From IMG/VR virus record IMGVR_UViG_3300009502_000047, positions 1 through 64,000 of that record: DNA of 64,000 nt. One strand, written 5' to 3'. The notes beneath the pieces were generated by a model, which was given only the letters and a program-made list of their open reading frames with translations, was not told the DNA's origin and ran no database searches. Of this stretch, positions 2,823-60,145 are shown in pieces. The stretch comes from a virus. A program made the position numbers and the translations under genes. How positions within the stretch are numbered: position 1 is the first letter of the stretch; each line of letters begins with the position of its first letter.

Positions 2823-3406
2823 GAGTACTCCTCTTTGTTATATAAGAAGGTTAAGGTATTTTGTATATCATTTATTTTAATTGCTGTACTTGCATTGTTT
2901 GTAACTGTGATTAATAAATGACCATTGGGTGCAAAACTGGGATTTGACTTACTACATATTGATGTTGTTGTGATGGCCCTGACTAATGCTCGTTTAACTA
3001 CAGAGACTCCATCAATCTGGTTGGTTAAATTGGAGGAACCCTTATCAAACTGAACCATGTCACTTGGAAATGACTGTCCATCATCACTTACCCATGAACC
3101 CGACAAGGTAAAGTCAAATGGATGGGTATCTGTTGTGATGGCTTTGGGTGTACTGATGTCCAGTTGGATGACCAAGTTACCTTCACGGTACTTGAGGGGT
3201 AAGTTGGTTACATCAATTCTATATGCATAACTTCCGCTCCCTGCTATGGTCTTGGGATGAGCAGTTGCTGTGTAGCTAACTGTTGTTGTTTCACGGGGTG
3301 CTGTAGATGATAAATCTGTATTAACTGTTACGTTTATATCATCAGGACTTATGCTCTCATCCATAACAAAGGTAAAGGGAACTGTTGTCCCTGCAGGTAC
3401 ATCCAT
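2819..3406 (-). CDS. Tail-region beta-sandwich protein of unknown function
   Basis: A 195-residue protein. Its sequence begins MDVPAGTTVPFTFVMDESIS and alternates beta-prone strands with Thr/Ser-rich loops, which suggests an Ig-like or jelly-roll virion module. There are no catalytic motifs. It overlaps the downstream gene by 4 bp and follows the hub-like gene by 1 bp, within the baseplate block behind the tape measure. Confidence 0.45.
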   Translation of the reverse strand: MDVPAGTTVPFTFVMDESISPDDINVTVNTDLSSTAPRETTTVSYTATAHPKTIAGSGSYAYRIDVTNLPLKYREGNLVIQLDISTPKAITTDTHPFDFTLSGSWVSDDGQSFPSDMVQFDKGSSNLTNQIDGVSVVKRALVRAITTTSICSKSNPSFAPNGHLLITVTNNASTAIKINDIQNTLTFLYNKEEYS

Positions 3407-5117: not shown

Positions 5118-5577
5118 ACCACCTCATGATACTTAGATCTATGTTATATTGATTAAATTTAGAAACATCCTGAGTTTCAGTTACATCAGTAACCAACCAA
5201 CAGGTATTAACTGGTAATTTAACAGGTATCTCTGATTCAAGTACTATTAACATTATGCCCATACTAATTACATTATGTATATAAGCATTAAGCGGATTTA
5301 TTACTCCATTATGAATTGTAGATGCAGTATAAATTTCACCAGTATTTATATCAGCAAGATTACCAGTTAACTTATATGATATTGGTTCTACACCAATTGG
5401 GACATTAATAGGTAATGGCCCATTATTAGCCAAAACAGATTTAATCTTGCTACCACCAGTAATTCTATTAATCATAAAGACATAATCACCCTTGGGAACA
5501 AGAGTAAATTTTTTATTACCATATTTCCCATCAGCATGCATATCAATTTTACTTTGATTAATTTGAAATCTCACCAC
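5101..5577 (-). CDS. Putative distal tail protein
   Basis: A 158-residue protein encoded immediately after the tape measure; its GTG start overlaps the tape-measure stop (GTGGTGA). It is beta-rich (KFTLVPKGDYVFMINRITGG, then VTETQDVSKFNQYNIDLSIM) with a Trp-Tyr-Gly-Asp end. Distal tail proteins normally follow the tape measure, and the 'ydLsfm' ending is reminiscent of them. The call is positional. Confidence 0.45.
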   Translation of the reverse strand: MVRFQINQSKIDMHADGKYGNKKFTLVPKGDYVFMINRITGGSKIKSVLANNGPLPINVPIGVEPISYKLTGNLADINTGEIYTASTIHNGVINPLNAYIHNVISMGIMLIVLESEIPVKLPVNTCWLVTDVTETQDVSKFNQYNIDLSIMRWYGDIS

Positions 5578-8500
5578 TTTCTACTCACCAGTCCTATGAC
5601 TCTGGCAACTTCATTAGATAATTGTGTTATTAAACTTTCATCCATAACATTTCCCTGAATTGTAACTGGAACCGTTATATTAATTATCTTGGCCTCTGAC
5701 TGTACCGGGACACTATTAACAGAGTTACCTGAATTATTACCTACTATATTTGCTACAGACGAGCTAGTCTTATGCATTTTACTTATGGTGTTTTGTAAAG
5801 CCTGTGAAGCCTTCCACAATGCATATTGATTTCCTGTAGTATCACCAATTGCCTTACCTGAATTAATTGCAGTCAATGTCGAATAATTCTTCTTTGTTGC
5901 ATCAGCATTAACCACAAATTCATTATCACTTAACAGTGTGGGTATGCTATCAGATGTTTCACTTCCCGGCCCAGTTACTAATCCCCCAGATGCTCTTGCT
6001 CCGGGTTTTTTACTGGGTGACTCTGGTTGTGCTGTTGTTATTCCCAATAATGCCAATACCTGGGGACTGTTGGATAAAATATACATTAGTTGTTTGGCAA
6101 ATACAGGATCATATTCCATCGTACCGCTTACACTACCCCTTGAAGTAGTCAACATGGTTTGAATATCAGATAATGTCTTACCTTTAAATTTGTCAGAGTT
6201 ATTCTCAATATATTTCTCTACCAGATAAAGTGATTCGTTACCTTGAACTCCCCATTCAAATGTCTTTTTATATTCTTCATCAGTTCCTCCACCACCATTA
6301 CCAGATGGATAGGTTGATTGCTGTGGTTGGTTGGTTCCTGTATTTGAAGATATTGTCCCGGTATTATTTTTTATTAAATTAGATATTTGTGCATTATATT
6401 GTGATATTGTATTCAAAATTGATGCTGCACCAGTTAATGCACTCGTACCTAATGTATTAATCTTTGGTATGTTAGTATTAATTGAAGATGCAAGTTTACC
6501 TGTTGCTACAGATGCTGGATTTATCTGACTACTAAAAGTAACAGCACCATCTTTGGCAGTTGAGATACTAATTCCATATTTAGATAACGCATCTATACTC
6601 GTTGCCGTAGCATTTGATTGATTGTTAAAAGCTATCTGAGCCTTTGTACCATCAGGAAGTGCTACTCCCATGGTCTTATTGGCAAGGTCACCCATCTTTA
6701 AATTTACATCAGAAGATACATTTGTTAAATCAAGGAATTTCTCTTGTACACCTGTTAATGCATTGGGAATATATTTACAGGCATCTGTCATGTTTGTTTG
6801 TGAGTCTGTCAATATGTTGGTAGCATCAACCTGTTTAATCTGTGATTCAGTACCCTTAACTACAGCATCAGACATATCATTGACATTTACACCAAAGATA
6901 CTTAGGAATCCAGCCTTTTCTTTTATCTTATCAGCAAAGTCCTTCATGGCCTCTTCCTGATTGGGTGTGGACATTGCTTCATATTTATTACCCTCTAATG
7001 TCGCAAAACTGGCTAAATTACCCATACCCGGAAACATATTATTCATGGCATTAATTGCTGGTTTAGCAGCTCCATGTTCATTTAACCAGTCATAAATACC
7101 AGATGCAGAAGTTAGAGTACCAACACCTAATCCCGGCATACCTTCAGATACTTTGGATAATTCAGTAGGGGCTTTGGCTGCTGCTCCTATACCTAAAAAT
7201 GGAAGAGTAAAAGCATTTATACCCGGTATTGAACCTGCAAGTGAAAGTGTATTTATACCCAGATTAACTGCTTTACTACCTAAATCATTGGCTCCTTTTA
7301 CAAAGTCATTTTGTCTGAAATTCTCAAAAGTATCATGGAAATTCTGCATCTTGGCATTACCAACTGCATTGATTAAAAGTCCATTTCCATAGGTACCCAT
7401 TCCACCTGATCCCAAAGATAAAATCTGATCTGGTACAGGTGTATTTTCAATTGCTGTCTTTGTTGCTTTATTTGTTATATCTTTTCTAATTGCACTTAGT
7501 TCTTCATCACTTAATCCAGCAGGTAAATTATTTGTCCTGCTATTAACAAGTTGATTAGGTAAATTTTCACCTGTGGTTTTTGCTCCAAATAATGGAGCAG
7601 CAGGAACTGCATATTCACCAACAGCACCTATAATACCCCCAAGACCAAGTGCTCCTGCACCCATCATTAACGCAGTGCTTGTACCAAGGCCAATTGCAGA
7701 TTCTTTGGCTGCCTCATCGTTACTTGCACCTTTACCCTTTGCAGTTCCAAAGCCTGTTAAGAGTAAAAGTGGATCTATTGGATTAATTGCAAACTCAGCA
7801 CCTGCTTTTAATCTATCAGCAGCAAAAGCCTTGGGATCTTTAATAACATCTCCAACGCCACTCTTTAAGGTATCCCACCATGAAGGTGCTTCTGGTTTTG
7901 CTTCTGGAGCTGATGGGAAGTTAGTTTCTCCACCTTTAAAATCACCACCAGCATTCTTGGTTGTTGCCTCATCAATAATTCTCTGATTGGCTTCGCTAGT
8001 TATCTTATCTAACTCATTAAACTTATCAGCTAATTCCTCTCTGGTTCTATCTACATCAGATTGTTTAACACCAGTGTCTTCACCTGTTTTTTCATCTGTT
8101 TTTGTATCTTGTTTATTCTCATCGGGTTTGGTCTTATCTTTTTCATCTGTTTTTTCATCTGTTTTTTCATCTGTTTTTTCATCTTGTTTAGTATCCTGCT
8201 TGGGTTCTCCACCAAATTTATCTTTGAGTTCTCCTAATCTCTCCCAGATATCTTTGAGCCAATCAGTTATTGATGATATATCGAATTTAAAGTCTGGGAA
8301 AGTAGGCCATGGGAAGCTAGTAATTCCACCATTTGTTATGTTACTGTTATTGGTAGTTTCATTTGAAATACCAGCAAGACCCTGAAGTTGACTTTGGTTA
8401 TCAACGATTACATGGAATGCTCCACTTCCACCATATGCACTGGATAAAAAGTTATTACTGTTATATGCAGAGTCAGCTTGGTTCTGTAATATTGAGTTAT

Positions 8501-11500
8501 TTATGTTCATCTGGTATCTTTGGTCACTGACATAACTGTCAGGCAATGATACTGATGGCATAGGTGTTCCTTCAGCAAATCCCTTGATTTTAATAGGTCT
8601 ATCATGATTCATTGCAGAAACTAATGCCCTGTTGGTGGGACTTTCCATTGCCTTTTCTTTAACAATGGCTTCATGTCTGGAAACAGCAACTAAATTCTTA
8701 TCTTCAGTTGGCCCTCCTGATCCCTCAATTACCCCGGTATCACCCACTTCTGCGGGTGTGTATCCGGTAGCAAAACCAACTGCCTTGCCAACAAATGAAG
8801 CTGCACCATTAAATTCATTGACACCAGCACCTTTTCCAAGTAACAACTCGGATGGTGTTGGAATGACCATTTGGCCTGCAACATAGTTGACAACTCTACC
8901 AACTGCTTCCCATAATAACACGATTGTACTCAATGCCAATACTAACTTTACAACTCCCGCATATGCTCTATTTGTAGCAAATGCAAAGGTATCTACATAA
9001 GCAGAAGAAGCCAATGCTGCTTTACCAAATGTACTAAATATTAAACTTCCACCAGCTAAAATGGACATGAATGGTTGTATCACCCACATCATTGGTACTA
9101 ATGCAGCTAAGAATGTAACCAATCCTTTCTGTCCAGCCACAGATGTTAATATACCCACTAATGTAGTTAGTCCATCAACTAGGGTAGGTAAAGATGCAAT
9201 TAATCCACCATTACCATCCTTACCAACCATCATATCAGATAGTTTATCTAGGATGGTATTTCCCTTTGTTCCTGCAGTTACCTTATTGACAACTGCATCA
9301 AATGCATCCATTAAACCCTTGACAAAGTTGGTATTTAAAAGAATCTTACTTGCCATTCCTGACATTAAGGTAGATGCTACTGCTGTAACTGCAGTTGATC
9401 TCTTCCATGCATCTACAAAGTTTCCTGCAGATACCCCCATCTTATTAAGTTGAGCATCAATATCGATGAAATCCTTACCAAAAATCTTTGCATAAGAATA
9501 ATTGGTAAACATTGACTGTAAATTAGATGCACTACTCAGTATGGTAGTGATGGTATTTTGTAAGACCTTATATATATTGGTCAATGAGAAGTTGATACCC
9601 ATAGCGGTCATGGAAACAGAAACTGCAGCCCAATTTAAGGTCTGCATATGTTTACCCATCCAATTAAGTAGTCTCTCACCAGCACCTAGATGCTTATTTA
9701 ACTTCTCAAATCCCTCTATATTTTTACCTGTAGTTGATGATTCTGACAGAACATGGGGTGCTTCATGTGGTGATATCTTATCTGCATATGATGCATTTAA
9801 CTCTGTAAAATAATTTGCAAAATCAAAACCCTGTGTTTTGGCAGCTTCAACTGCTGTTTTGGGTATCAGGAAGCTACCCGATGCACTATAGATTGGTCTC
9901 TGACCACCCTGTTGTGTTACTGTCTCTTTGATATCACCCAATGTATTAAGTTGCTTAGATGACTTTATGCCTGTAATCTGTGAGAGGAAGTTGATATTTT
10001 CCTGTTTCCATTTATTTAAATCATCTTGAGATTCAAAGTTAACTACACTCTTATATTGGGTAAATGGAGTTTGCTTAAACTCATATGATTTAGGCTTCCA
10101 ATCCATCTTTTTAACAGCATCACTTGATGCAGCAATTCCAGCTTCAAATTTACTTAAGTCCGTTTTTGGGACATTTAGTTGACCAGAAATACCTGCTGCT
10201 CTTCCTGCCAAACCTTTCATGAAATTGGCATCCTGTTGGTTGATATTGGAAGTTAAAACACCACTCAAATTCTTTGTTATATCAGTAGGATTAACCAGAC
10301 TAAATTTAAGGTTGCCTGATGTAAATTGTTTTGTTAAGTTATCCATTATCAATTTAAATTCGGCAACATCAGTTGGATTATCAGTAAATCCTCTTCCCGG
10401 TAATCCCCTCTGTTTATCTCCATAGATAGTTTTATGCAAAGTATCTAAAATAGCATTTATTGCGTTAACTGAACTGGATTCGCGTCTATTTACTAAATTA
10501 TTATATGTAGAGTCAACTGTTGCATTAGGATCTACCTCACCACCAAGAGTATATCCCTTGGGTTTATCTTCACTGGAATCCCTATCCAGTATAAAACTAC
10601 CCGGTTCTGCATATCCAAAGTTCTTATCACCTTCGGTATATTCCCCCTCCAGTTTATGTCCACCAAATGGATTGACTACATCAGAAAGTGCATTTAACTT
10701 CTTAAGATTATTAATACCAATTTTGGATACGTCTTCAGGATCAAAGATAGTCTCCCCTGCATTATACCTAATTGGAACCATCCCACCATCATTGAAGCCA
10801 GGAATTATTTTTTCCTGTATCTGTTCATGAGTATTTACCTTATTACCTGTATTTTCACTATCTTCTATCTTGGATATTTCAGATACATAATTTCCACGAA
10901 TGTTCTCTTCATTTACATCATATGGTAAGTTAGATAACATATCAAACTTTTGTAAAAGTGGAATTAATAAGGGTGAATTTATCATTGGTCTACTGAGACG
11001 ACTAAAGAAACTGTTATCTAATATCTCCCCGGAATATGAGATACCTTCTTTTGCCCTCTTTCTACTTTCTTCTTCTAATGACCTTGTTGCATCGTACTTA
11101 CTAAACTTGGTATTGTCTGGTAAATCTTGGAAAGGTATTGGTTTAAACTCTTCCAGTTGTTCAGGGATTGTCATCACATAGTCATTATGTGATAACTTAG
11201 GTAACCATGGATAATTTGATGGATGTAAAACAGAGTAGCCTTTGGGTTCAGGAGCCTTGAGAGGTAACTTACTTCTTCTGGGAAATATACCTGGACTAAA
11301 GTAGTTGTATAGACCTGATAAAAACCTTGAGTGTATAGATGTTGGCTTATCAGAGTATCTTTTAGGTAATATAGATAAATTATTAATTTCCTTTACATTT
11401 CCAGTTATACGATTCTGTAATTCCTCATTGAATTCATCTCCAGTGTAGGTAAATTCCTCACCATATTCACCCATTGGTTGTTTATTTTCTTTGGTAGTTA

Positions 11501-14500
11501 AACCCTCACCTTTATCTTTAAATAATGATTCTTTATATGCCTGTTTATAATTTGATATTTTATTCCGTATGGATACTATATCATTTCTGTTACCACGGTT
11601 TTTTGCATCTTCAAGTTGATTTCTTAAATCAGATAATGTATCCTTATACTCAACTTTATATTTATCCTTGTCAGAGGTTAAATCATTAAATTTACCCGTA
11701 GTAAATCGTGTATTACCCTTCAATCTATATTCTAAGTCTCTAATCCACTGGATAGGTATACCTGTCTGTCCATGGGTTTCTGCCATCTCCACATCTGATC
11801 TAAATATACCTGTTTTACCAATGTAATTGGGATCTACATTCTTACGTGTAGATTCAGTTAAGTTAGACAGTAACTTATTATTTACTGTCCTATAGATATC
11901 TTTGAATACATCAAGCCTTGAATTGTGAGTACCAGATGAACCATACATACCTGTGCGAGTACCCGGAGTTAAACCGGGTATCTCAAATCCAAAGGATGTA
12001 ATTCCATATTTCTTTAAGTCAGATAATGTAATATTGTGTCCGGTTGTAGTCTTTTTTGCTATTTTATCTAAAGACATACCCCGAGCAAAGTTGTCAATAT
12101 GTTCATCAATATCCCAGATACCATCATATTCCTTCTTAGCTAACTCTGTTATTGCACCTCTATATCTGGGATCAAAGTTTGTATTTCGTCTAACATACTC
12201 CATTATTTTATCAGGTCTGGACATTGCCTTAACGTGTGGAGTTGATTTAGTCCAGTCAAAATCATCAATATTTATATCCCCAGTATCTATTTTCTGAAAT
12301 AAATTAGATAATCTTTGAACTTCTGCTTCAACAACTTCCTTTTTAATCTTAAATTTATCATCACCATATTCTGCATGGATGTCACTTGGTATACCCTCAG
12401 CAAAAAGACCTAATGTACTATCAGTTAAACTTCCCTTACCCACTAACTTCTCACTATCATCAACAAATCTAACTGGATTCTGACCTTCTACATTTGGGAA
12501 AAACTTTGCTATCTTATCATTAGATTGGGTAAACTGGGTAATAGAGTGTGATATTGCATTACCCAGAAATTTACCTGATGTCATTGTCTTAAGTATATCA
12601 CTCTCTTTGCCCTTAGATAGATCAGTTGTAAAGTCATCTCGTATCAACCCTTCTTTACCTAAATTCTTAATTATCTTAGGGAAATCACCAACCGGGTCAC
12701 TGCTTACTTCACCTAAATCAAGACCATATGATTTACGACCTTCAGTGATTGAGTTAATAAAGTTCTTTAACTTTCCACCCTGATTCATCGCACGTAAGAA
12801 GATACTGCTTAATGATCCGGGTGCTGGTTTGTCACCTCTAAACTCAGGGACTGCTTTATTAGTTACTGTTTTGAAAAAAGCCTTTACTCCCTGATTATAA
12901 ATGTTAACATTGTGATCCTTAAATTTACTATATTCTTCAAGTGTATCAAATAACATACTTGAGTACTTAATACCTTCAAATTGGTCACGGACATATTTAT
13001 ATGAACTGCGACCCAGTAAATACCTTAGTTTTTCCTCATAAAATACACGTTTACCCAATTCACTATCTGCATATCTCTCTGTATTATGCTCCTTGGGTAT
13101 CATGTTCCACCAAGTATCGTGAGCAGAGACTCTTTTACGTGACATTGAAAACGATAAATCTTGGAAGGTACCCAAGTGCTTACCTAATGTCCCATATCTC
13201 CTATATTTATTATTAAATTCATTCCAGTCAATTGAATGAACATTACCAGATTCATCTGTGTTTGCTGAAGACATCAATTTACTTCGTATAAAGTCCTGTA
13301 CTCTGGGAGAGTAACCTTCAATATCCTCGACCATATTACGGATGGAAGATTGATGTAATTTGGGATTAACCCAGATACCCGCATTCTGCAAAACAGGATC
13401 AGTTATAAATGGTTCTTTAATACCAGTTGTACTGGAAATAGGTATAGCCTTTATATTTTCAATATCACCTTCACCATATCCTGTACCTGCTGCAAAATCC
13501 AATATCCTCTTATTATCGTCATTAGTATATGATAATGCAAATTTATGTGGAGTTCCTGTGTAAGATGCTGAGAACTTATCAACAGCAGGGAAAAACTCCC
13601 TTACATCTTCAGGAAGTAATGAAGGGTCAAACATTGAGATGTCAATTGCACCCTTTTTCTCCAAGCTCTCACGTTGCTGAGCACCTCTCGAAGCAGAACC
13701 AAGTGGTGAAACTGTTTTATTTAATCTTGTGACATTACCGGGATTCTCAAATAATTTAAGATATGATCCCTGAATTGCATCAACAATCTTATTTACCTTT
13801 GTTGGAGATAATCCCCTCAACGAAGTCCTTTGTCCACTTATTAATCTCTCAACAAATTCAAATTTCTTAAGTGTATTAACACCCTTTGCTGGATCTTGTG
13901 GCCCTCTAGGATCTATCATGTAATCCTGAATTGCTGTACGTAATTTGTAAGCCTGTTTATTTTTGTCCTCAATTATTTTAACACCAAAGTCAGATGAATA
14001 ATCATCTAAGTTAGATAGTATAGCATCTGATTCTCCAATGTTACTTTTACCATGAGAAAATACCCTGAGTAACATTAAGTTATATAGATCATTGTGTTTA
14101 ATCCGGGTACCTGACTTAACATTTAATCCACCCTTCCCCAATATCTCAGAATTTATCTTATTCAAACTATCAGGTGCAAAGGAACCATATCTAACTCTGT
14201 TATTTAAATCATATATAGAGTACCCACCAGACCTCATCTGTTTATCAAATGCAGCAACAGGTACATCAGGAAGAAAAATCTGTCTGTTTTTATTCCCTCT
14301 AATAGATTCACCTGCAAAGTTGAGTACATCATTCATCTTCATCTGTTTCTTGACACCATTATCAATAACAGTTAAAGTGCGAGTATCTAACCCCATGTAC
14401 CTAGATAAGTTAGCCTTAAAATTCTTGGATATATCACCCATAAATAAATTGGTTATTGATGCAACCTTTGGGTTCTTCTGCATCATTGTCTTGAAAATCT

Positions 14501-15416
14501 GACCCGTGGCTATAACATCATAAGCAGCATATTTAATCTGTGATTTACGGAGTTTACTTGATGCCCAGTCATGATCTGTTTTTTTAGTAAGATTGACTCC
14601 CAAAACACGAGATGCAATTGAACTTAAATCATGTTTATCACGTTCTGCATCAATTGATCTTGATACGTGCATCGTATCAAAGATTCTATCAGTAAATCCT
14701 TTATCTTCTATATCAGATTCTTTTAATATCCCAGCCTTGGTTAAAAAAGCTAAGTCATAAGATGCATTTTGAAAGACTAAATTAGATTTGGTTTTTCTCA
14801 TTAGGTGGGACAAGACCTTGGGATCATTTATCTTGTCCATATCTATAATATGAACTACATCGGTATCTGGATCATGAAGTTGAACTAATCTTGTATGAGC
14901 ATCATGTGGTAAGATATATCTCGCTGTCTCTGTATCAATAGCAACATTCTTTGACTTCTCATAGTGTAAGATAGCTTTATTTAAATCATTGTCATTGGTA
15001 ACATAAACCTGCTTGTATTTTTTAAATGCTTCATCTTCATGAACAAGAGGTTTTATTGTAGACTGTTGATGAGTTGTGGGTATCTCATCCAATGGTTGGC
15101 CCTGATATTTATTATATCTGGCATTCTCATCATAATTCTGTATATCTATCTTGTGGACAGTAGCAATTTCATCCAGTCTCTTCCTTAATTTCTCCCTAAC
15201 CTCTACACTTTCTTTTTTTTGAAATTCTATATACAATTTTTCAATATCATCATATGCTTCTTTATATCTTTTTATATCATCTCCTTTAAGTTCAGAGACC
15301 AACTTTGAATTATCAATCTGACTTAATCCCCGTCTTAACTCATAAAAAGATTGATCATTAGACAGGCCAAACCTTAATAAATTCATGTTTTCCTGCCAAT
15401 TATCTTTGTAATCCAT
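5571..15416 (-). CDS. Giant tape measure protein with N-terminal DEDDy 3'-5' exonuclease domain
   Basis: At 3281 residues this is the largest gene. Family evidence: glycine-rich loops typical of tape measures (around residue 1540, GGMVPIRYNAGETIFDPED; near 3142-3176, GGLVTGPGSETSDSIPTLLS then NEFVVNADATKK), long hydrophobic segments near residues 1930-1945, 2096-2128 and 2152-2177, and a position after the tail assembly genes and before the baseplate. Unusually, residues ~140-310 form an RNase D/PolA-like exonuclease: D161/E163 in AIDTETA (Exo I), N217...D221 in VFQNASYDLAFL (Exo II), D247, the HDLSSIASRVLG helix and Y296xxxD300 in KYAAYD (Exo III). Residues ~2408-2450 are a KTDE repeat linker. 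No polymerase motif follows the exonuclease. The start at ATG 15416 has an AGGTGAT ribosome site. Confidence 0.9.
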   Translation of the reverse strand: MDYKDNWQENMNLLRFGLSNDQSFYELRRGLSQIDNSKLVSELKGDDIKRYKEAYDDIEKLYIEFQKKESVEVREKLRKRLDEIATVHKIDIQNYDENARYNKYQGQPLDEIPTTHQQSTIKPLVHEDEAFKKYKQVYVTNDNDLNKAILHYEKSKNVAIDTETARYILPHDAHTRLVQLHDPDTDVVHIIDMDKINDPKVLSHLMRKTKSNLVFQNASYDLAFLTKAGILKESDIEDKGFTDRIFDTMHVSRSIDAERDKHDLSSIASRVLGVNLTKKTDHDWASSKLRKSQIKYAAYDVIATGQIFKTMMQKNPKVASITNLFMGDISKNFKANLSRYMGLDTRTLTVIDNGVKKQMKMNDVLNFAGESIRGNKNRQIFLPDVPVAAFDKQMRSGGYSIYDLNNRVRYGSFAPDSLNKINSEILGKGGLNVKSGTRIKHNDLYNLMLLRVFSHGKSNIGESDAILSNLDDYSSDFGVKIIEDKNKQAYKLRTAIQDYMIDPRGPQDPAKGVNTLKKFEFVERLISGQRTSLRGLSPTKVNKIVDAIQGSYLKLFENPGNVTRLNKTVSPLGSASRGAQQRESLEKKGAIDISMFDPSLLPEDVREFFPAVDKFSASYTGTPHKFALSYTNDDNKRILDFAAGTGYGEGDIENIKAIPISSTTGIKEPFITDPVLQNAGIWVNPKLHQSSIRNMVEDIEGYSPRVQDFIRSKLMSSANTDESGNVHSIDWNEFNNKYRRYGTLGKHLGTFQDLSFSMSRKRVSAHDTWWNMIPKEHNTERYADSELGKRVFYEEKLRYLLGRSSYKYVRDQFEGIKYSSMLFDTLEEYSKFKDHNVNIYNQGVKAFFKTVTNKAVPEFRGDKPAPGSLSSIFLRAMNQGGKLKNFINSITEGRKSYGLDLGEVSSDPVGDFPKIIKNLGKEGLIRDDFTTDLSKGKESDILKTMTSGKFLGNAISHSITQFTQSNDKIAKFFPNVEGQNPVRFVDDSEKLVGKGSLTDSTLGLFAEGIPSDIHAEYGDDKFKIKKEVVEAEVQRLSNLFQKIDTGDINIDDFDWTKSTPHVKAMSRPDKIMEYVRRNTNFDPRYRGAITELAKKEYDGIWDIDEHIDNFARGMSLDKIAKKTTTGHNITLSDLKKYGITSFGFEIPGLTPGTRTGMYGSSGTHNSRLDVFKDIYRTVNNKLLSNLTESTRKNVDPNYIGKTGIFRSDVEMAETHGQTGIPIQWIRDLEYRLKGNTRFTTGKFNDLTSDKDKYKVEYKDTLSDLRNQLEDAKNRGNRNDIVSIRNKISNYKQAYKESLFKDKGEGLTTKENKQPMGEYGEEFTYTGDEFNEELQNRITGNVKEINNLSILPKRYSDKPTSIHSRFLSGLYNYFSPGIFPRRSKLPLKAPEPKGYSVLHPSNYPWLPKLSHNDYVMTIPEQLEEFKPIPFQDLPDNTKFSKYDATRSLEEESRKRAKEGISYSGEILDNSFFSRLSRPMINSPLLIPLLQKFDMLSNLPYDVNEENIRGNYVSEISKIEDSENTGNKVNTHEQIQEKIIPGFNDGGMVPIRYNAGETIFDPEDVSKIGINNLKKLNALSDVVNPFGGHKLEGEYTEGDKNFGYAEPGSFILDRDSSEDKPKGYTLGGEVDPNATVDSTYNNLVNRRESSSVNAINAILDTLHKTIYGDKQRGLPGRGFTDNPTDVAEFKLIMDNLTKQFTSGNLKFSLVNPTDITKNLSGVLTSNINQQDANFMKGLAGRAAGISGQLNVPKTDLSKFEAGIAASSDAVKKMDWKPKSYEFKQTPFTQYKSVVNFESQDDLNKWKQENINFLSQITGIKSSKQLNTLGDIKETVTQQGGQRPIYSASGSFLIPKTAVEAAKTQGFDFANYFTELNASYADKISPHEAPHVLSESSTTGKNIEGFEKLNKHLGAGERLLNWMGKHMQTLNWAAVSVSMTAMGINFSLTNIYKVLQNTITTILSSASNLQSMFTNYSYAKIFGKDFIDIDAQLNKMGVSAGNFVDAWKRSTAVTAVASTLMSGMASKILLNTNFVKGLMDAFDAVVNKVTAGTKGNTILDKLSDMMVGKDGNGGLIASLPTLVDGLTTLVGILTSVAGQKGLVTFLAALVPMMWVIQPFMSILAGGSLIFSTFGKAALASSAYVDTFAFATNRAYAGVVKLVLALSTIVLLWEAVGRVVNYVAGQMVIPTPSELLLGKGAGVNEFNGAASFVGKAVGFATGYTPAEVGDTGVIEGSGGPTEDKNLVAVSRHEAIVKEKAMESPTNRALVSAMNHDRPIKIKGFAEGTPMPSVSLPDSYVSDQRYQMNINNSILQNQADSAYNSNNFLSSAYGGSGAFHVIVDNQSQLQGLAGISNETTNNSNITNGGITSFPWPTFPDFKFDISSITDWLKDIWERLGELKDKFGGEPKQDTKQDEKTDEKTDEKTDEKDKTKPDENKQDTKTDEKTGEDTGVKQSDVDRTREELADKFNELDKITSEANQRIIDEATTKNAGGDFKGGETNFPSAPEAKPEAPSWWDTLKSGVGDVIKDPKAFAADRLKAGAEFAINPIDPLLLLTGFGTAKGKGASNDEAAKESAIGLGTSTALMMGAGALGLGGIIGAVGEYAVPAAPLFGAKTTGENLPNQLVNSRTNNLPAGLSDEELSAIRKDITNKATKTAIENTPVPDQILSLGSGGMGTYGNGLLINAVGNAKMQNFHDTFENFRQNDFVKGANDLGSKAVNLGINTLSLAGSIPGINAFTLPFLGIGAAAKAPTELSKVSEGMPGLGVGTLTSASGIYDWLNEHGAAKPAINAMNNMFPGMGNLASFATLEGNKYEAMSTPNQEEAMKDFADKIKEKAGFLSIFGVNVNDMSDAVVKGTESQIKQVDATNILTDSQTNMTDACKYIPNALTGVQEKFLDLTNVSSDVNLKMGDLANKTMGVALPDGTKAQIAFNNQSNATATSIDALSKYGISISTAKDGAVTFSSQINPASVATGKLASSINTNIPKINTLGTSALTGAASILNTISQYNAQISNLIKNNTGTISSNTGTNQPQQSTYPSGNGGGGTDEEYKKTFEWGVQGNESLYLVEKYIENNSDKFKGKTLSDIQTMLTTSRGSVSGTMEYDPVFAKQLMYILSNSPQVLALLGITTAQPESPSKKPGARASGGLVTGPGSETSDSIPTLLSDNEFVVNADATKKNYSTLTAINSGKAIGDTTGNQYALWKASQALQNTISKMHKTSSSVANIVGNNSGNSVNSVPVQSEAKIINITVPVTIQGNVMDESLITQLSNEVARVIGLVSRKW
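8085..8195 (-). repeat. KTDE-coding direct repeats inside the tape measure
   Basis: Several copies of a 12-nt unit (ttttttcatctg on the plus strand) encode repeated Lys-Thr-Asp-Glu in a highly charged linker (DEKTDEKTDEKDKTKPDE). Some copies are identical and adjacent, so copy number could change by slippage without breaking frame. The linker separates the membrane-like central part from the C-terminal third of the protein. Confidence 0.8.
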
Positions 15417-15426
15417 GTTATATCAC

Positions 15427-15654
15427 CTATTTTTTACTTTCTATATGTTCAGCGTAAATTGAGCTAATTTTAAAGTCAAACATCAATCTCTGATACCATT
15501 CACCCGGATTATTCCAATCCAACAGATCAGATGGTCTTTGTCCACACATCTTGGCTAATTTACCTAAAGATAATTGTAAGTCTAAATCCCTTTGTAAATC
15601 ATCTTCGGGATTCCACTTACAAAATTTCTCATCGTACGAATCGAAATAATTCAC
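15427..15654 (-). CDS. Putative tail assembly chaperone, second frame (GpT-like)
   Basis: A 75-residue frame directly upstream of the tape measure (SLGKLAKMCGQRPSDLLDWN, then EWYQRLMFDFKISSIYAEHI). Small helical proteins of this type, with an 'S.a..lG..Ps....' pattern, are common second tail assembly proteins. The only start near its 5' end is GTG 15654; in-frame TGATGA lies just upstream. It overlaps the preceding gene by 26 bp in the +1 (equally -2) frame, so it may be made by frameshift or by re-initiation at GTG. Confidence 0.6.
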   Translation of the reverse strand: MNYFDSYDEKFCKWNPEDDLQRDLDLQLSLGKLAKMCGQRPSDLLDWNNPGEWYQRLMFDFKISSIYAEHIESKK

Positions 15655-16033
15655 CTTGAAGGTTCATCACCATAAACATTGCATTAAATATTGCATACTG
15701 GTCTTCACCCGGCATAGTATCATAGGTAAACGGCCCATCTACAATAATATGTGGCAAAATCTGCTGGCACCACTGTGCAAAGGCTTCATCAAAGTTAAAC
15801 TGATCTGCTGGTGATGCAATCAACTGACCTCTTTCATCCCTAGTTTTGGGTAAAGCCTTTACCATAAGTGAGATATGTTTACCACCCAGTGGCCCTACTG
15901 GTTTCCTTATCGTATAAATATGACCTGCAATTTCCAACTTAAATTCTGTATTTACAATTGCAAGTTCTTCAGGAGACTTCTCAATCTCAACTGGTTCTTC
16001 AATCTTACTTTCTGTGTTGGTCTTTCTAACCAT
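15629..16033 (-). CDS. Putative tail assembly chaperone (GpG-like)
   Basis: A 134-residue protein from ATG 16033 (a TTG two codons earlier is less likely). The charged N-terminus (TNTESKIEEPVEIEKSPEEL) precedes a compact domain with EFKLEIAGHIYTIRKPVG and a C-terminal helical part (FDEAFAQWCQQILPHIIV). Acidic, small, and placed between the tail-tube genes and the tape measure, it fits the first tail assembly chaperone. Its 3' end overlaps the next gene in another frame, as in many chaperone pairs. Confidence 0.65.
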   Translation of the reverse strand: MVRKTNTESKIEEPVEIEKSPEELAIVNTEFKLEIAGHIYTIRKPVGPLGGKHISLMVKALPKTRDERGQLIASPADQFNFDEAFAQWCQQILPHIIVDGPFTYDTMPGEDQYAIFNAMFMVMNLQGELFRFVR

Positions 16034-16069
16034 ACACAAAGATATAATCCTACCATTTAAAAAAGATTT

Positions 16070-17131
16070 TTAGTTTGTTAGCAGATAGAATGAATCTGCA
16101 CTGGGTGTAATAACTTGGAAGTTAACTGTCTTCTCAAATTGATTACGTGCCTGCACTGACCTATTCATTTCAGTAAACTTAAGTGCATCAGTACCCGATA
16201 TAATGGCTAATTGAGCCTCATTTATTGCAGGTGTGCCACTTAATGCTGGGCCACTTGCAGTAGGCCCATACAAATACATAGCCAGAGTACCACATCCAAG
16301 ATCGTTGGATTTAGCCTGTAATCCACCAGTTGATTCGAGATTTCCACCTCTCATGACCTGTTCAATCTGAGTCCATTGATTACTACCAAAGGTAAAGGTA
16401 CCTGTGATAGTAGTTAGACCATTAAGCCAGTGTCCTCTAATAAATGGACTACCTAAATATGCAAATTGCTCATCAAATTTCCTTGTGATATTTAAGGTCA
16501 TTGACTTAGCCACAATCGATACTCCACCGACTAAAACAGCCATGTTATAGAATACCAATGGTGATTCTGTATTGGTAGCAGCAGTATAGGTTACTTCATC
16601 TATATCACTACCTGTATATGCCTTAGAAGCCATCCAGTTAAATTTGGCCTTGACAAACTGAGCTGTCTCACAGGTTATATCCATGGATGAAACTGCACAG
16701 TTAACATACAAGGTATTCTTCATGGCTTGATCATCACCCAGTATCATATCAAATACACCGGGTATATTTCCAAGTGTATAGATATAATAAGGAGTAAATG
16801 TCAAACCATCTACGCCACCAATTCCTCTCTTTGCTATTCCAGCATGTGAAACACCTGATGCTCTATTACCAAACATCGAGTGTAATAGTTCAGCTAACAT
16901 AATGGGTCTCAATGAACCATCAAGAGTTCCTGAAGCCTTAAACAGTCCACCTGCCATAGATGCCACTGATGGCTGATCAATAGCTTCCTCAACGATTGGG
17001 TTCCTGCTAACAGGATCACTAAACCCGGAAAGTGTTAACTCATTAAAATCAGTCAACGTAGGTTTAGCATGTGAATCACTAAAAGCTGACTTATTTTTAA
17101 CAAGTACATACCTGTCAATACCTTGGGTCAT
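16070..17131 (-). CDS. Major tail tube protein paralogue B
   Basis: A 353-residue protein clearly paralogous to the next upstream gene. Shared landmarks: DRYV near the N-terminus, FSDPVSRNPIVEEA, a GG..K.SG...G..RP segment, TRKFDEQFAYLGSPFIRG, NGLTTITGTFTFGSNQW and the C-terminal FTEMNRSVQARNQFEKTVN. This layout (long beta-rich protein with a conserved 'NGLT...GT.TFGS..W' core) is what tail tube subunits look like. Its start overlaps the upstream stop as ATGA. With no sheath gene, it points to a long non-contractile tail. Confidence 0.75.
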   Translation of the reverse strand: MTQGIDRYVLVKNKSAFSDSHAKPTLTDFNELTLSGFSDPVSRNPIVEEAIDQPSVASMAGGLFKASGTLDGSLRPIMLAELLHSMFGNRASGVSHAGIAKRGIGGVDGLTFTPYYIYTLGNIPGVFDMILGDDQAMKNTLYVNCAVSSMDITCETAQFVKAKFNWMASKAYTGSDIDEVTYTAATNTESPLVFYNMAVLVGGVSIVAKSMTLNITRKFDEQFAYLGSPFIRGHWLNGLTTITGTFTFGSNQWTQIEQVMRGGNLESTGGLQAKSNDLGCGTLAMYLYGPTASGPALSGTPAINEAQLAIISGTDALKFTEMNRSVQARNQFEKTVNFQVITPSADSFYLLTN

Positions 17132-18219
17132 GCGTCAACATCTCCTATGGTTATTTTGAAGTCATCATCTGTCTTAAAAGAAGCCTGCCAATTAAGTGTC
17201 TTCTCAAACTGATTTCTACCCTGAACAGACCTGTTAAATTCAATATACTTCATGTTATTAATTGCAAAACAACATGTTGAGGTAGCACCAGTTGGATCAA
17301 ATAACTTCAATCTTGCATACTTCCCAAATATCGGGTTATCCAATGGTTCAAGCACAGGATCAGTTATATTTCCAATGATTGTCTGTCTAAGTGCATCCCA
17401 TTGTTTGCTACCAAAGGTAATAGTACCATTTAGAGAAGTTAAACCATTCATAATTAAATCACGTAGATACGGAGTACCCAGTGTGTAATAATTCTCATCA
17501 AACTTCCTGTCAATGGTCATTGTAAAGCCTTTAGCCTCACAATCATGCCAAACATTTCCATCATCACTTATCTGAACGACACCATTGTAAAAGTAACTAC
17601 CCTCTTCTGTTGAATCTATATATCCACTTATATCTCCAAAGGTAGTGTCACCAGCACTTGGTTCTATGATGGTTGCATGCTTACCAATCCATCCAAACTT
17701 AGCTGTTGCTGCAGCACCCACGGTCATGGATAATTCCATGGACTTAACACCAACACCACCATACTGTATAATCCTACCATTACCAACGCCAGAATTTCCA
17801 GTCCCATATGCCTGATCATCACCAACTCTAAGTGTAAGAGCACGAGGCTGTGAACCTAATGTCATCTCTAGTTTTTTGGGTGATGCAGCATTATATGCTC
17901 CAAATGGATCATCACTAGCAGCCTGTGTGTTACCCGGATATCCCATCATTGCAGATACTGCCCACATCATGTTCTTAGGTCTGAAGAAACCCTCAAATCC
18001 ACCGCCTACCTTGTAAGGCCCACCGATAACGGCAGCAGCAGCTTTAAGTTTAAGAGTCTCTTCAATGGAAGGTTGTCTGTTGATTGGATCACTAAACTGC
18101 GTTACACGCATCTTATACCACTTATTGTCTGCTCCACCATCACTATTTATAGTTCCGTAAGTATCTCCGGTACCCTCAAAGCCAGTGTGATAAGCGACAT
18201 ATCTATCAATATTAGCCAT
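17128..18219 (-). CDS. Major tail tube protein paralogue A
   Basis: A 363-residue protein from ATG 18219, chosen because GGAGG lies about 10 nt upstream; the TTG at 18228 is less likely. It shares DRYVAYH, FSDPINRQPSIEETL, DRKFDENYYTLGTPYLRD, NGLTSLNGTITFGSKQW and FNRSVQGRNQFEKTLNW with the following gene, so the pair arose by tandem duplication and then diverged strongly in the middle. Probably the tube polymer subunit; the partner may be a second tube or tail-completion form. Confidence 0.75.
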   Translation of the reverse strand: MANIDRYVAYHTGFEGTGDTYGTINSDGGADNKWYKMRVTQFSDPINRQPSIEETLKLKAAAAVIGGPYKVGGGFEGFFRPKNMMWAVSAMMGYPGNTQAASDDPFGAYNAASPKKLEMTLGSQPRALTLRVGDDQAYGTGNSGVGNGRIIQYGGVGVKSMELSMTVGAAATAKFGWIGKHATIIEPSAGDTTFGDISGYIDSTEEGSYFYNGVVQISDDGNVWHDCEAKGFTMTIDRKFDENYYTLGTPYLRDLIMNGLTSLNGTITFGSKQWDALRQTIIGNITDPVLEPLDNPIFGKYARLKLFDPTGATSTCCFAINNMKYIEFNRSVQGRNQFEKTLNWQASFKTDDDFKITIGDVDA

Positions 18220-18595
18220 GTTGTACAAACCTCCTAAAGCTAAATTCTTGTTCTACTCTAATCATAGTACCACCATTATCAAAGAAATTTGTTTTCTCAA
18301 ACATAAAGGATGTACAGTCAGTCACTCCCGAATTCATCACATCCGACTCAACAATCTGAAGAAAATCATCAGTCCTGTCAACTATGTTAATAGGATCATC
18401 AATAGTATAACCAATGATGCAGATAACCTTCCTTAGATATGAATCAGTTGTTTCGGGTGTCGGATCAATACCAGAGATAATAACATAACATTCCTTTGGA
18501 CGTAGTTGCTCCTGTCTCCTAGTATTAACCTTCCAGTTCAGCTTCTTTAACGACTTTATAACTTCATTATATACATCTATGCTAGACAACATCAT
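18212..18595 (-). CDS. Putative tail terminator / tail-completion protein
   Basis: About 128 residues, starting at one of several adjacent ATGs (18595 or 18592; GTG 18598 is also open). The fold-like pattern (SIDVYNEVIKSLKKLNWKVN... CYVIISGIDPTPET... EQEFSFRR) matches small tail terminator proteins: an N-terminal helix, then four to five strands. It lies between a connector-like gene and the tail tube genes, the usual place for a terminator, and overlaps the tube gene by 8 bp. Confidence 0.55.
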   Translation of the reverse strand: MMLSSIDVYNEVIKSLKKLNWKVNTRRQEQLRPKECYVIISGIDPTPETTDSYLRKVICIIGYTIDDPINIVDRTDDFLQIVESDVMNSGVTDCTSFMFEKTNFFDNGGTMIRVEQEFSFRRFVQHG

Positions 18596-23673: not shown

Positions 23674-23834
23674 TATCTATGTCCTCCATGTTTTACAGCC
23701 ATAATGACTGATTTAGCCCATGTTCTATACTTGTCCTTGACCTTTACATCAAGAGATGTGAATTCACCGACATTGTTTGCTAGAAAAATCATCTCTGCAA
23801 TTGTCTCATGTAAGTTATTATCTACCATTGTCAT
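23673..23834 (-). CDS. Small protein between terminase and portal
   Basis: A 53-residue frame (ATG 23834, overlapping the terminase TGA as ATGA; ATG 23828 also possible). It reads MTMVDNNLHETIAEMIFLAN, then DVKVKDKYRTWAKSVIMAVK, mostly one or two helices. Both ends interlock with neighbours through overlapping stop and start codons, which supports translation. Function unknown; perhaps a portal or packaging accessory. Confidence 0.6.
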   Translation of the reverse strand: MTMVDNNLHETIAEMIFLANNVGEFTSLDVKVKDKYRTWAKSVIMAVKHGGHR

Positions 23835-26800
23835 ACTACCTGAAAACCCATTACCATGGGAGTTAAATTTTCCAATTCAAAGTTGTCCATAAACCATATT
23901 ACATTTGCCACACAGTCTGCTATATCTTTCGAGTTATGCACAAAAACACCAGATAATAAGCCAAAGTTATTCCATCTCTCAACTTCTAAATCATAAACCG
24001 GGATTGCATAATCCAGATATATATTAATCTTAAATATGACTATGTGGTTATCACCCGTTGTTTCATGCATAAATTTAGCCCATGAATCAAAGTTATTTTC
24101 TCGTAGCACCCTCATAATTACATTTCTATCACAATTCAACATTTTAGATGCCTGATGTGGATTTAATGCTCCCTTACATTTTGCCTCCTCTAATGAAGAT
24201 ATGTCAATATCCCTAAATTCATAGTAACCATCTCCACCAATCTGGTGAATTCTACATGGCATTAACCTATCAAGTTCAGGGACTATGTCTTTGGCTGCCT
24301 TATAAGTACCATCTCTCATCATAATTGGATGTTCAGGAGTACATTTGAATGATGCTCCCGAGTCCAGTACAATCTCAATAAGTTCATTGACATATTTGGT
24401 TAACTTACCCTTTGCATAACCGGGAACCAACCTACCATCAGGAGTACATGACATAACCCATATGGTTTTATCCTGTAACTCTGAGATTGTGGGACAACTT
24501 CCATCTAATGCCCTGATTCTGGTTTCTCCAACAAAACAACCACTGTAAGGGTGATCGACTTTTGGCTTACGAGGATTGTTAATGACCAACAAATCCTCAG
24601 CTTCTCTTTTTAACTCCTCATCTTCCACCACCATGACCTTAAAGTCACCTTCCTCCGAATTCTGAAGTTCTCTCCATCTGTCATAATCTTCCTTCTCCAC
24701 AATATGTTTTTGAGCAGTAATACCAAATTTTTCTTCTACCTTCTCAATTATTTCTGGAAACATCCAAGTGTCAAAGACCAATTCATTAATATTTAATTTG
24801 GGAATTGCCCTTTCCATAAATGACCATATATCACTTGGCTTTATGTACGAAGCACCATCGTCCTTGGTAAACTTAATGGCTCCATCCACAACATACAAAT
24901 GTTCGTCCTGATATCCACAGGACATTCCAAACCCATCATTTTTAACTGCAGGATCAATAGCCATAACTCTGCTTCTCATAGTTCGGTTAACCCGGAAGTC
25001 TGAGCGTAGAACATTAGTCATCTTGGTCATGACAATACCTTCGGGGAACTGCATACCACCCGTCATCTCCGGGGCACACGCAAAGTCCCTATAAAATGCC
25101 CCCATATCTCCCTTAGCTCTATATTCAGCTTTCAGTCCTTCCTCTGATAAGTGGGGATTCATTTCCCATGACTTATATAAGACTGAAACAGTATGTGGAG
25201 CACTTAATCCCTGCTTATATAGCGTCATCATGATTCCAGTGGGAGTCTGGGGTGAAGAACAAGCTAAAACATGCCCATCAAAGCCAAGAGTAGCCGTGGA
25301 CTTACTCAACCTCGTATAAATTTCCCAAGCACCTCGTCTGGATTCAGTTTGCTCAAAGAGGTCTAATTCATCAAAGACTACAAGCTTACTGGTACGACCT
25401 ACGGCAGTATTGGCCCATGAACCCAGAACTTCAGCATGGACATGCTTATCGTTGCAGTTGATACGCCCCTTATAGAAGTCGGTATTAGTCCAACTGCTAA
25501 TCCACTCGTTAGACTCCAGCATATTGTACATGTTGCTGTAAACACCATCTTCAGCAAGTTCCGTGGACGTTGCTACCCCAATGATGAAGATTTTTTGGTT
25601 CTTAAGTAAGTTGTAATGGACAGAAGGACTTTCCAAAGTACAGATGTCAAAGAATTCATAGGCCATTATCATACTGGCAAGAGCGGTCTTCCCAGAGTTA
25701 TGCGAGACAATACCATTAGATATAAATTCATGATAACCGGGAACATGAACATCATAAAGTATTTCATCATTACACTGTTCAATGCTTACTATTTCATCAT
25801 AGAATAAATGATTATAACGAACCCATTTAAGATATTCAACAGCATTATGTTTACCATCAAAATAATCAATGATTTTATCTAATATAAAATAAGTTATTCC
25901 ACTGGCTTTGGGTGTATTCTTACGAAGGTTGCCATAACATTGATGTCTGATTTCTTCCCAACCTTCACTATCAACTACACTTTCACGTTTCATTTTACGA
26001 AGTAACTTATGTAAATGGGGTATTTTGTCAACCTGACTGGTAGACTTTAAACTTGGTTCTTTTATCTTTCTTGGAAGCGTAAAACCTATTTTATCATAGA
26101 ATAAACGAGCAGCATCATGATAGATAGTTAAGCACCAACAATATGATTTTTCTCCATTTTGACGAGTGTACTTAATAGATTTATATCTTACTGATGATAT
26201 AATACCATATTGAGTAACTAATATATTTTGAACCTGTTTTATTAATTTCTCACTTGTACAGTCAAGATGAACTGAAGAACCATTATTTAATATATAACCA
26301 TCTGTATCAAATAATCCCTGTAAAAATGCAGTTATCTCATTTATAGAACCATTAAGTATTGAATTAGGTACTGTTTTATTATATGAACCAACATAATCTA
26401 GGTCAAGTTGTTCTCTGGCTACTTTGCTATTTACTCGTAAGTCAACTGTACAGCCATTTTTTTTACCATTGTATCTCAATGGAACCAAATTAAATTTTTC
26501 CTTTACAATAGATGTAAAATCAGATATTAATCTCTCATCGGCAGAGGTAAATGTAAATGAGTTTTTTCTTGCCATTGTATAGCAACCATCACCTACAAGT
26601 AATCCCAGCAATCTGGCAATACGTAAGTCACCTATGGGTTTCCATGATCCATTGGGTGTTTTACGTGATATACATACAAAATCACCCACTTTTAATTCAG
26701 GTAATTTCTGCCAGACATGATCACCATGACTATTCATCACTAATACAGGATGTTTATGTGAACCCTTTAACTCATAACCATATCTTGTTTTAAATTTGAT

Positions 26801-27196
26801 AATTGGTTGAGAATCCTGTTCTATTTTATGAGTATAATCATACATGCCAAATCGAGTTAAGATACTTCCAGATTCATCTATGTCTTTGATTTGTTGAATG
26901 CCTTCCTTGGTATAAACTAATGTATCCCCAGTGACGCATCTCATCCCACAACACATATGTAAATACTTGTTTGGAGGCAGGGATGGGTCGTATTTTTGCT
27001 GATAAAATCTACGGGCTATATCAGCCTGAACTGGAAATAATTCATTGCCCAGTACCTCGGTCATAAACCAGACAGGATCTTGTCTACCTTTCAGCACAGT
27101 CCTCATGTACTGGAAGTAGTCTTTGCCGTCTAAGGTTTCGCCTTTAGTAACTTCGCATTCTGTTTGTCTAGTATCTCGATTATTTTTCCTCGGCAT
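23831..27196 (-). CDS. terL: Terminase large subunit containing two inteins
   Basis: A 1121-residue precursor; the spliced product would be about 505 residues, normal for the family. It packages DNA by ATP hydrolysis and cuts concatemers. ATPase: spliced Walker A CCGMR/SGKT, Walker B LVVFDELD (D609, E610), ACSSPQTPTG coupling region. RNase H-like nuclease: D748 in AIDPAVKNDGFG, D809 in VFDTW, and D1094 in SKDIADC. Intein 1 (residues 87-500) interrupts Walker A; intein 2 (887-1088) interrupts the nuclease domain just before SKDIADC. Both begin with Cys, end His-Asn and are followed by Ser. The gene overlaps the small subunit gene by 67 bp. Confidence 0.92.
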   Translation of the reverse strand: MPRKNNRDTRQTECEVTKGETLDGKDYFQYMRTVLKGRQDPVWFMTEVLGNELFPVQADIARRFYQQKYDPSLPPNKYLHMCCGMRCVTGDTLVYTKEGIQQIKDIDESGSILTRFGMYDYTHKIEQDSQPIIKFKTRYGYELKGSHKHPVLVMNSHGDHVWQKLPELKVGDFVCISRKTPNGSWKPIGDLRIARLLGLLVGDGCYTMARKNSFTFTSADERLISDFTSIVKEKFNLVPLRYNGKKNGCTVDLRVNSKVAREQLDLDYVGSYNKTVPNSILNGSINEITAFLQGLFDTDGYILNNGSSVHLDCTSEKLIKQVQNILVTQYGIISSVRYKSIKYTRQNGEKSYCWCLTIYHDAARLFYDKIGFTLPRKIKEPSLKSTSQVDKIPHLHKLLRKMKRESVVDSEGWEEIRHQCYGNLRKNTPKASGITYFILDKIIDYFDGKHNAVEYLKWVRYNHLFYDEIVSIEQCNDEILYDVHVPGYHEFISNGIVSHNSGKTALASMIMAYEFFDICTLESPSVHYNLLKNQKIFIIGVATSTELAEDGVYSNMYNMLESNEWISSWTNTDFYKGRINCNDKHVHAEVLGSWANTAVGRTSKLVVFDELDLFEQTESRRGAWEIYTRLSKSTATLGFDGHVLACSSPQTPTGIMMTLYKQGLSAPHTVSVLYKSWEMNPHLSEEGLKAEYRAKGDMGAFYRDFACAPEMTGGMQFPEGIVMTKMTNVLRSDFRVNRTMRSRVMAIDPAVKNDGFGMSCGYQDEHLYVVDGAIKFTKDDGASYIKPSDIWSFMERAIPKLNINELVFDTWMFPEIIEKVEEKFGITAQKHIVEKEDYDRWRELQNSEEGDFKVMVVEDEELKREAEDLLVINNPRKPKVDHPYSGCFVGETRIRALDGSCPTISELQDKTIWVMSCTPDGRLVPGYAKGKLTKYVNELIEIVLDSGASFKCTPEHPIMMRDGTYKAAKDIVPELDRLMPCRIHQIGGDGYYEFRDIDISSLEEAKCKGALNPHQASKMLNCDRNVIMRVLRENNFDSWAKFMHETTGDNHIVIFKINIYLDYAIPVYDLEVERWNNFGLLSGVFVHNSKDIADCVANVIWFMDNFELENLTPMVMGFQVV
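23933..24538 (-). other. Intein 2 of terminase: endonuclease-free intein with HTH-like insert
   Basis: 202 residues from C887 (CFVGETRIR) to H1087-N1088 (GVFVHN), next residue S1089. Block B is CTPEHPIMM; the end has YAIPVYDLEVERWNNF, a normal block F. No LAGLIDADG or HNH motif is present. The central part instead has a helix-turn-helix-like stretch (LNPHQASKMLNCDRNVIMRV), probably what is left of a DNA-binding homing module. Confidence 0.88.
25697..26938 (-). other. Intein 1 of terminase: DOD homing-endonuclease intein
   Basis: 414 residues from C87 (CVTGDTLVY) to H499-N500 (NGIVSHN), next extein residue S501. Block B is GSHKHPVLV. Two LAGLIDADG motifs are intact: ARLLGLLVGDGCY (Asp203) and AFLQGLFDTDGYI (Asp299), so the homing endonuclease could be active. 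The insertion lies inside the P-loop, so without splicing the ATPase site is broken. Confidence 0.92.
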
Positions 27197-48329: not shown

Positions 48330-48979
48330 GTGGTTTTACTCTGAAGTTTATTCCCTTCATAAGAAAAGGAGACCACGTTAATGTACTCAAACGAGCAAAT
48401 TTCGATTCTATATGTCTGGGAGATGAACTTTGGGATGAGTCGGACAGTAGGGATGCCATCTCCTCCATCACATGGGATACAGTTGTCATCATGCGAAAAC
48501 AACAATCCTTTAAGTATTGTACCGAGATAGCCGAGTGTTTAACAGCAAAACACATTTTTATATTAACAAAACCCGGTCACACAGATGATTTACCTCACAT
48601 AGGTGAGAACTACGAGGCTGCCTTCCTACTAAAATTAAATAGTAAAGTTACCTTGGAAGACTTAAAGGATGTAGCCAAGGAATGGCGAAGCTCCCGAGTA
48701 CCCTACTTTATATGCAGTAACCATGCACCCGGCTTAGTTGAATACCTAAATCTAGGCAAGTACAACTATCTAATGACCAGATTCCAGAGCAATAATGTCC
48801 TCGACATAATAAACTTACGAGCCAGCAAGATAAGTGCAGTAATATCCGAGATAGTAACGTATGACCCCAAAGACATGATATTACAAAGTCTTGCTTACAA
48901 AGACAACTTATCTTCCTATGATATCAAAGGACTAATTGATGTCAGACACATCTGCGAGCGTGGTTTCAATGGTGGATGA
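48323..48979 (+). CDS. Unknown protein; coding frame extends upstream without a standard start
   Basis: The first ATG is 48491 (162 residues), but the same frame is open from 48323 and reads like protein upstream: FTLKFIPFIRKGDHVNVLKR, ANFDSICLGDELWDESDSRD, AISSITWDTVVIM, joining RKQQSFKYC. No ATG, GTG or TTG occurs in that stretch and no ribosome site precedes 48491. AGGTGG at 48328-48333 would suit a CTG start at 48341. A -1 shift from the previous gene, a non-standard start or a sequence error are the options. Later sequence (HIFILTKPGHTDDLPHIGEN; YDIKGLIDVRHICERGF) is unrecognised. Overlaps PolB by 41 bp. Confidence 0.5.
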   Translation, partial: TVGGFTLKFIPFIRKGDHVNVLKRANFDSICLGDELWDESDSRDAISSITWDTVVIMRKQQSFKYCTEIAECLTAKHIFILTKPGHTDDLPHIGENYEAAFLLKLNSKVTLEDLKDVAKEWRSSRVPYFICSNHAPGLVEYLNLGKYNYLMTRFQSNNVLDIINLRASKISAVISEIVTYDPKDMILQSLAYKDNLSSYDIKGLIDVRHICERGFNGG

Positions 48980-59879: not shown

Positions 59880-60145
59880 TGAACATGGATGCTACAATCT
59901 CAATTTTAATTAAAGACCACGTTTATACAGCCATAATCAATGACTTTTATGATATCAAAATGAGGAATATAGATGGTAATTCCGATTACTTTCAATGTGG
60001 AATATTTGATGAACATACAATCCCTACAGATCATATTATCCTTGACTATATTCACGCTATCAAAGGTACTCATTTTTACTCTGAGTGGATGGAGAAGTGG
60101 ACGACTGTAGCCTTTCAGGTGATGAGTCGTGATCATAACTGTTGA
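59879..60145 (+). CDS. Protein of unknown function
   Basis: An 88-residue protein: NMDATISILIKDHVYTAIIN, later FDEHTIPTDHIILDYIHAIK and WMEKWTTVAFQVMS. Mixed alpha/beta. Overlaps the nuclease gene by 17 bp. Unrecognised. Confidence 0.45.
   Translation: MNMDATISILIKDHVYTAIINDFYDIKMRNIDGNSDYFQCGIFDEHTIPTDHIILDYIHAIKGTHFYSEWMEKWTTVAFQVMSRDHNC

Follow-up and report, generated by a model that had tools for sequence, protein, structure and literature searches.

The stretch of DNA analysed here (hereafter the window) comprises 64,000 nucleotides, positions 1 to 64,000 of IMG/VR virus record IMGVR_UViG_3300009502_000047, and encodes a tape measure protein of 3281 residues. We propose that this is a chimeric tape measure, in which a PolA-type DEDDy exonuclease without a polymerase is lodged in a large N-terminal extension and carried into the cell as exchangeable cargo, a reading to which we assign a probability of roughly one half. 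Comparison of sequences and structure prediction show an intact exonuclease active site and a tape-measure core within a single reading frame, and an extension that is both optional and variable; delivery into the host cell and nuclease activity we infer.

The exonuclease domain

The original prediction, made from the nucleotide sequence alone, placed a 3'-5' exonuclease domain at approximately residues 140-310 of the tape measure, and Pfam agrees: PF01612 (DNA_pol_A_exo1) matches residues 137-313 with an E-value of 4.7e-22 (positions 14478-15008; like all tail genes described here, on the minus strand). The match scores 79 bits against a cut-off of 23.6 and spans profile positions 2-170 of 173, and a score and coverage of this order exclude a chance match. 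NCBIfam, AlphaFold2 and Foldseek lead to the same domain, which is the only enzyme domain recognised among the 3281 residues.

When the domain is aligned with 23 viral exonuclease domains, residues D161, E163, N217, D221, Y296 and D300 are invariant. These make up the Exo I motif (D161-T-E163, positions 14928-14936, in which the D and E are the invariant residues), the Exo II motif (N217 to D221, 14754-14768) and the Exo III motif (Y296 to D300, reading YAAYD, 14517-14531). Judged by this alignment, the four catalytic acids are D161, E163, D221 and D300, accompanied by Y296, and all are intact. The landmarks listed in the original prediction hold in both position and invariance with the exception of D247 (within FDTM), which is rejected as a catalytic acid since relatives carry either C or D at that position.

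AlphaFold2, supplied with residues 101-340 as an alignment with viral exonuclease domains, returned a model with a mean predicted local distance difference test (pLDDT) score of 83.5 and a predicted template-modelling (pTM) score of 0.83. Foldseek matched this model, each with a probability of 1.00, to NrnC, Aquifex PolA, apicoplast PolA, WRN, Nibbler, Rrp6 and RNase D, and, in a viral library, to viral DNA polymerases. Profile comparison and structure prediction, the check that had been suggested for the domain, are therefore in accord: as modelled, it has an RNase H-like exonuclease fold, and this fold, taken with sequence alignment to solved enzymes, implies that the catalytic acids should cluster around two metals. 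The intact active site predicts 3'-5' exonuclease activity. PADLOC returned a generic DEDDh match alone.

The domain had been likened to the exonucleases of RNase D and PolA, and only the second half of that comparison survives. NCBIfam model NF011539 (PolA-type exonuclease-polymerase) scores 75 bits, against 27 bits for the rnd model of RNase D, whose cut-off is 299; an identity as RNase D is accordingly rejected. A sequence search of the PDB ranked NrnC and diDNase at the top with PolA next, and the NrnC, diDNase and RNase D family shares the DEDDy fold and provides the best PDB matches in both sequence and structure. Nevertheless, NrnC sequences form their own clade in our tree, with support of 100/100 and without the window domain, and so NrnC is rejected also. 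The window domain stands instead beside the exonuclease of a Pseudanabaena-phage-type PolA, with support of 92/84, although on a long branch that leaves the placement less than firm. By curated models and tree together, the domain appears closest to the exonuclease domains of phage PolA. It shares with phage-type DNA polymerase I (PF01612, NF011539; for example, that of Pseudanabaena phage PA-SR01) its fold, its catalytic residues and approximately 32-34% identity, but in those enzymes a polymerase follows the exonuclease, whereas here the exonuclease is fused to a tape measure. A polymerase domain downstream was considered and rejected, as there is no Pfam or NCBIfam polymerase match past residue 333.

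The tape measure gene and its relatives

That the protein is a genuine tape measure, as originally claimed, is established at the level of sequence by core homology, gene order and a C-terminal motif. It occupies a single open reading frame (ORF; 5571-15416) of 3281 codons without a stop. The C-terminal motif region, residues 3140-3212 (GGLVTGPGSETSDSIPTLLSDNEFVVNA; 5781-5999), matches PHROG 25241 and 17300 (tail length tape measure) and the annotated tape measures of five phages. The conserved core, residues 1907-2195 (8832-9698), consists of hydrophobic helices and is homologous to the syntenic tape measures of four related viruses, while the N-terminal extension, residues 1-1906 (9699-15416), is the proposed cargo region and is absent from the 465-578 residue tape measures of three relatives. 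Searches for family matches, including those against Pfam and the PDB, recognised no domain between residues ~340 and ~1900, and a single-sequence structure model of residues 340-1530 was uninformative (pLDDT 36).

Two regions with GG-V/GP motifs, residues 2211-2300 and 3131-3200 (within 5817-8786), lie some 850 residues apart and resemble each other to a degree that none of 500 shuffled sequences equalled, hinting at a C-terminal module that may have been duplicated or interrupted. Further copies of the GG-V motif at residues ~1541 and ~1606 were rejected when shuffling proved them not significant.

Along the minus strand, the tape measure is preceded by two tail-tube paralogues, a chaperone and an overlapping T-like frame. 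The G-like tail assembly chaperone (15629-16039) is kept beside the tape measure in all relatives. The T-like frame (15427-15654) carries the signature LGxLAxxxGxRPSxxxxWNxPxxWxxRLxFD, which recurs in the same frame relative to the chaperone in a related virus, L105 (IMGVR_UViG_3300001605_000025; chaperone pair at positions 9998-10513 of that record). In neither virus does the second frame have its own ribosome-binding site. In both viruses the pair probably represents a programmed frameshift of the G/GT type, either +1 or -2. The tail-tube genes (16070-17131 and 17128-18228, both PHROG 290, tail) are a tandem pair in the window, against a single gene in each relative.

The tape measure itself starts at an ATG preceded by an AGGTGA ribosome-binding site (15423-15428), of the same kind as those of the other structural genes in the window with which its context was compared. 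GC content lies between 32 and 39% and is even along the ORF, as is codon usage, and we found within it no internal start, in the same frame, that follows a strong ribosome-binding site. This evenness and the lack of a strong internal start give no sign of a chimeric join, and the assembly error that had been named as a possible refutation of the domain finds no trace in the open frame either.

Related viruses were found in IMG/VR by terminase and chaperone scans; querying IMG/VR with one sequence at a time (exonuclease, capsid, portal or residues 314-1600) produced no relatives. Those found keep terminase, portal, capsid, tail tube and chaperone in the order of the window. Three of them have short tape measures at the syntenic site (465, 578 and 520 residues), all without an extension, and a profile built from all three aligns to residues 1922-2133 of the window protein (hhalign E-value 1.7e-5, for a single target). 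PF01612 had no match in eight related records, several of which are fragments.

L105 encodes the closest counterpart, a tape measure of 2379 residues (L105:10513-17652), and L106 is a near-identical copy that differs by 1 base over 20 kb. The L105 core, residues 1691-1956, is 28% identical to window residues 1907-2195 (E-value 2e-19), and the two giant proteins are alike in this homologous core, in gene order and in an N-terminal extension that is large and includes an enzyme-type domain. They differ in what that extension holds, for the ~1690 residues upstream of the L105 core contain a YpsA/SLOG domain at residues 553-698 (PF06908, E-value 4.5e-32) in place of an exonuclease (PF01612 is without a match in L105), and the window and L105 extensions have no detectable sequence similarity. 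Elsewhere in phages, the YpsA-like matches listed bear the annotations DprA-like, GTP-binding, DUF1273 or hypothetical, and none is a tape measure. One virus family therefore includes tape measures with no extension, with an exonuclease extension and with a YpsA/SLOG extension, and this series leads us to read the N-terminal extension as an exchangeable cargo slot.

The original prediction knew of no tape measure with a DnaQ-fold nuclease, and our searches found none. In a tblastn search of 50,697 phage records, no fusion of tape measure and exonuclease appeared among the matches listed (samples of 372 records), which were DNA polymerases or weak, partial matches to helicases and hypothetical proteins. 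The best 80 IMG/VR relatives of the exonuclease include no tape measure: 78 are polymerase-type ORFs of ~590-700 residues or polymerase ORFs cut by a contig end, and the other two are an ORF of 228 residues and one of 349 residues cut by a contig end. Among the best 80 GTDB matches, which are mostly NrnC-sized alphaproteobacterial proteins with one Aquifex protein of PolA size, there is no giant protein, and we found no description of such a fusion in open-licence papers.

Tape measures fused to cell-wall lytic or peptidase enzyme domains are known. The window protein differs from these in that an enzyme acting on nucleic acid is of no use for penetrating a wall, and in that its domain lies at the far N-terminus, away from the tail-tip end. 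Polyvalent proteins (PMC5512222) and MuF-ADP-ribosyltransferase fusions (PMC7302621) resemble it in being large phage proteins, structural or injected, that carry anti-host enzyme domains; however, they are not described as tape measures, and the word 'tape' does not occur in PMC5512222.

Other genes and the probable host

Beyond the tail genes, the window encodes a PolB with an intein, ribonucleotide reductase, thymidylate synthase, an ERCC4-HHH nuclease (60129-60770, plus strand), a Cas4-like PD-(D/E)XK nuclease (55017-55703, plus strand) and a weakly MCM-like protein (60775-61929, plus strand). The last three are conserved in relatives and their sequences suggest a replication and repair set of archaeal type. 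The best matches of PolB (48936-52337, plus strand) are in haloarchaeal tailed viruses, and the host of this uncultured tailed virus is likely to be archaeal. A terminase scan of GTDB genomes gave no match, and consequently neither a provirus nor a host was identified. On LAGLIDADG or Hint matches, the terminase (23831-27196, minus strand) contains two intein-like insertions and PolB contains one; two of the terminase sites are free in one relative, G1.

Proposed delivery of exchangeable cargo and its alternatives

In proposing how an exonuclease comes to be part of a tape measure, we start from the orientation of the protein in other siphoviruses. The 80alpha tape measure has its C-terminus at the tail tip and is present in three copies per tail (PMC7048315), and during injection that of lambda makes contact with proteins of the inner membrane (PMC13190303). 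If the window protein is arranged likewise, its extension would be packed into the tail tube along with the rest of the protein, the N-terminus proximal to the head, and would leave the tail ahead of the DNA or together with it. The exonuclease, whole or after cleavage, could then attack the 3' ends of DNA, either at the membrane of the cell or within its cytoplasm. Most likely it would do so just as infection begins, its target being nucleic acid of the host or generated by defence and its purpose counter-defence or takeover. On this reading the extension would form an exchangeable slot akin to polyvalent proteins, which are large, injected and multidomain (PMC5512222), and to the MuF minor capsid protein of Microbacterium phages that is fused to an ADP-ribosyltransferase (ART) toxin domain (PMC7302621), but mounted on a tape measure. 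The presence of a different enzyme-type domain in the corresponding extension of a related virus strengthens the idea of virion-carried cargo. We hold more tentatively, and at somewhat less than even odds, the fuller proposal that tape measures of this family serve as delivery vehicles. Enzymes that handle nucleic acids and nucleotides would occupy an exchangeable N-terminal slot, be stored in the tail tube and be pushed in ahead of the genome, the exonuclease serving counter-defence or host takeover before viral genes are expressed.

Several points weigh against carriage as exchangeable cargo. Virion localisation, delivery and activity are all things that we infer, and the slot idea comes from two extended tape measures, each with its own cargo. 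Some 1,200-1,500 residues of the extension, between the exonuclease and the core, have no recognised domain, and in L105 the ART-like (~855-960) and HAD-like (~1060-1200) motif sets that could be picked out by eye went unconfirmed in Pfam and PDB searches. A tail lumen would not easily accommodate several copies of a folded domain of this size; storage there is a real difficulty and may require an unfolded state or cleavage.

Another explanation is that the N-terminal part is released by cleavage, either ahead of tail assembly or in the course of it. The exonuclease would then serve in the cell that makes the virions, in replication or packaging for instance, and the virion would keep only the core and C-terminal part. 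Processing of the tape measure is known in lambda, and the window extension far exceeds the length of the relatives' tape measures. We nonetheless think this rather unlikely, for we found neither a cleavage site nor a linked protease, nor a start from which the core could be made independently, and the virus already encodes a PolB with an exonuclease domain of its own. It is unlikely too that the exonuclease works on the DNA of the virus itself, either binding or trimming the leading genome end near the head-proximal N-terminus or processing it in the new host. The position of the domain would suit such a role, being N-terminal where tape measure C-termini are at the tail tip (PMC7048315), and PolA-type domains do act on DNA 3' ends; yet the L105 extension has SLOG and no exonuclease, and three relatives have no extension, which indicates that trimming of genome ends is not a need of the family.

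Tape measures are structural proteins and the activity of this domain is predicted only, and it might accordingly be a non-catalytic piece, DNA-binding or structural, with the task of holding or guiding the end of the DNA. The retention of D161, E163, D221, Y296 and D300, none of which a purely structural role would require, makes this improbable. Least credible of all, and very improbable indeed, is that a chimeric contig joined an exonuclease to a tape measure. The window is a single metagenomic contig and searches found no second copy of its version of the gene, but the 3281 open codons, the even GC content and codon usage, and a ribosome-binding site of the gene's own, placed immediately behind the chaperone pair, argue otherwise, as does the relative with the same architecture and other cargo, which occurs in two records.

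Carriage of the exonuclease as exchangeable cargo would extend what is known of tape measures, which carry cell-wall enzymes and reach the inner membrane, and for which a nuclease cargo is new as far as we have found. If the exonuclease does enter the cell, it would be a virion-borne nuclease delivered before viral gene expression, at the time when defence systems act. A physical question also follows directly from the finding: how the tail tube can store a folded domain and let it pass. The series within this family, of tape measures with no extension, with an exonuclease and with SLOG, is a natural set for testing tape measures as vehicles for protein delivery.
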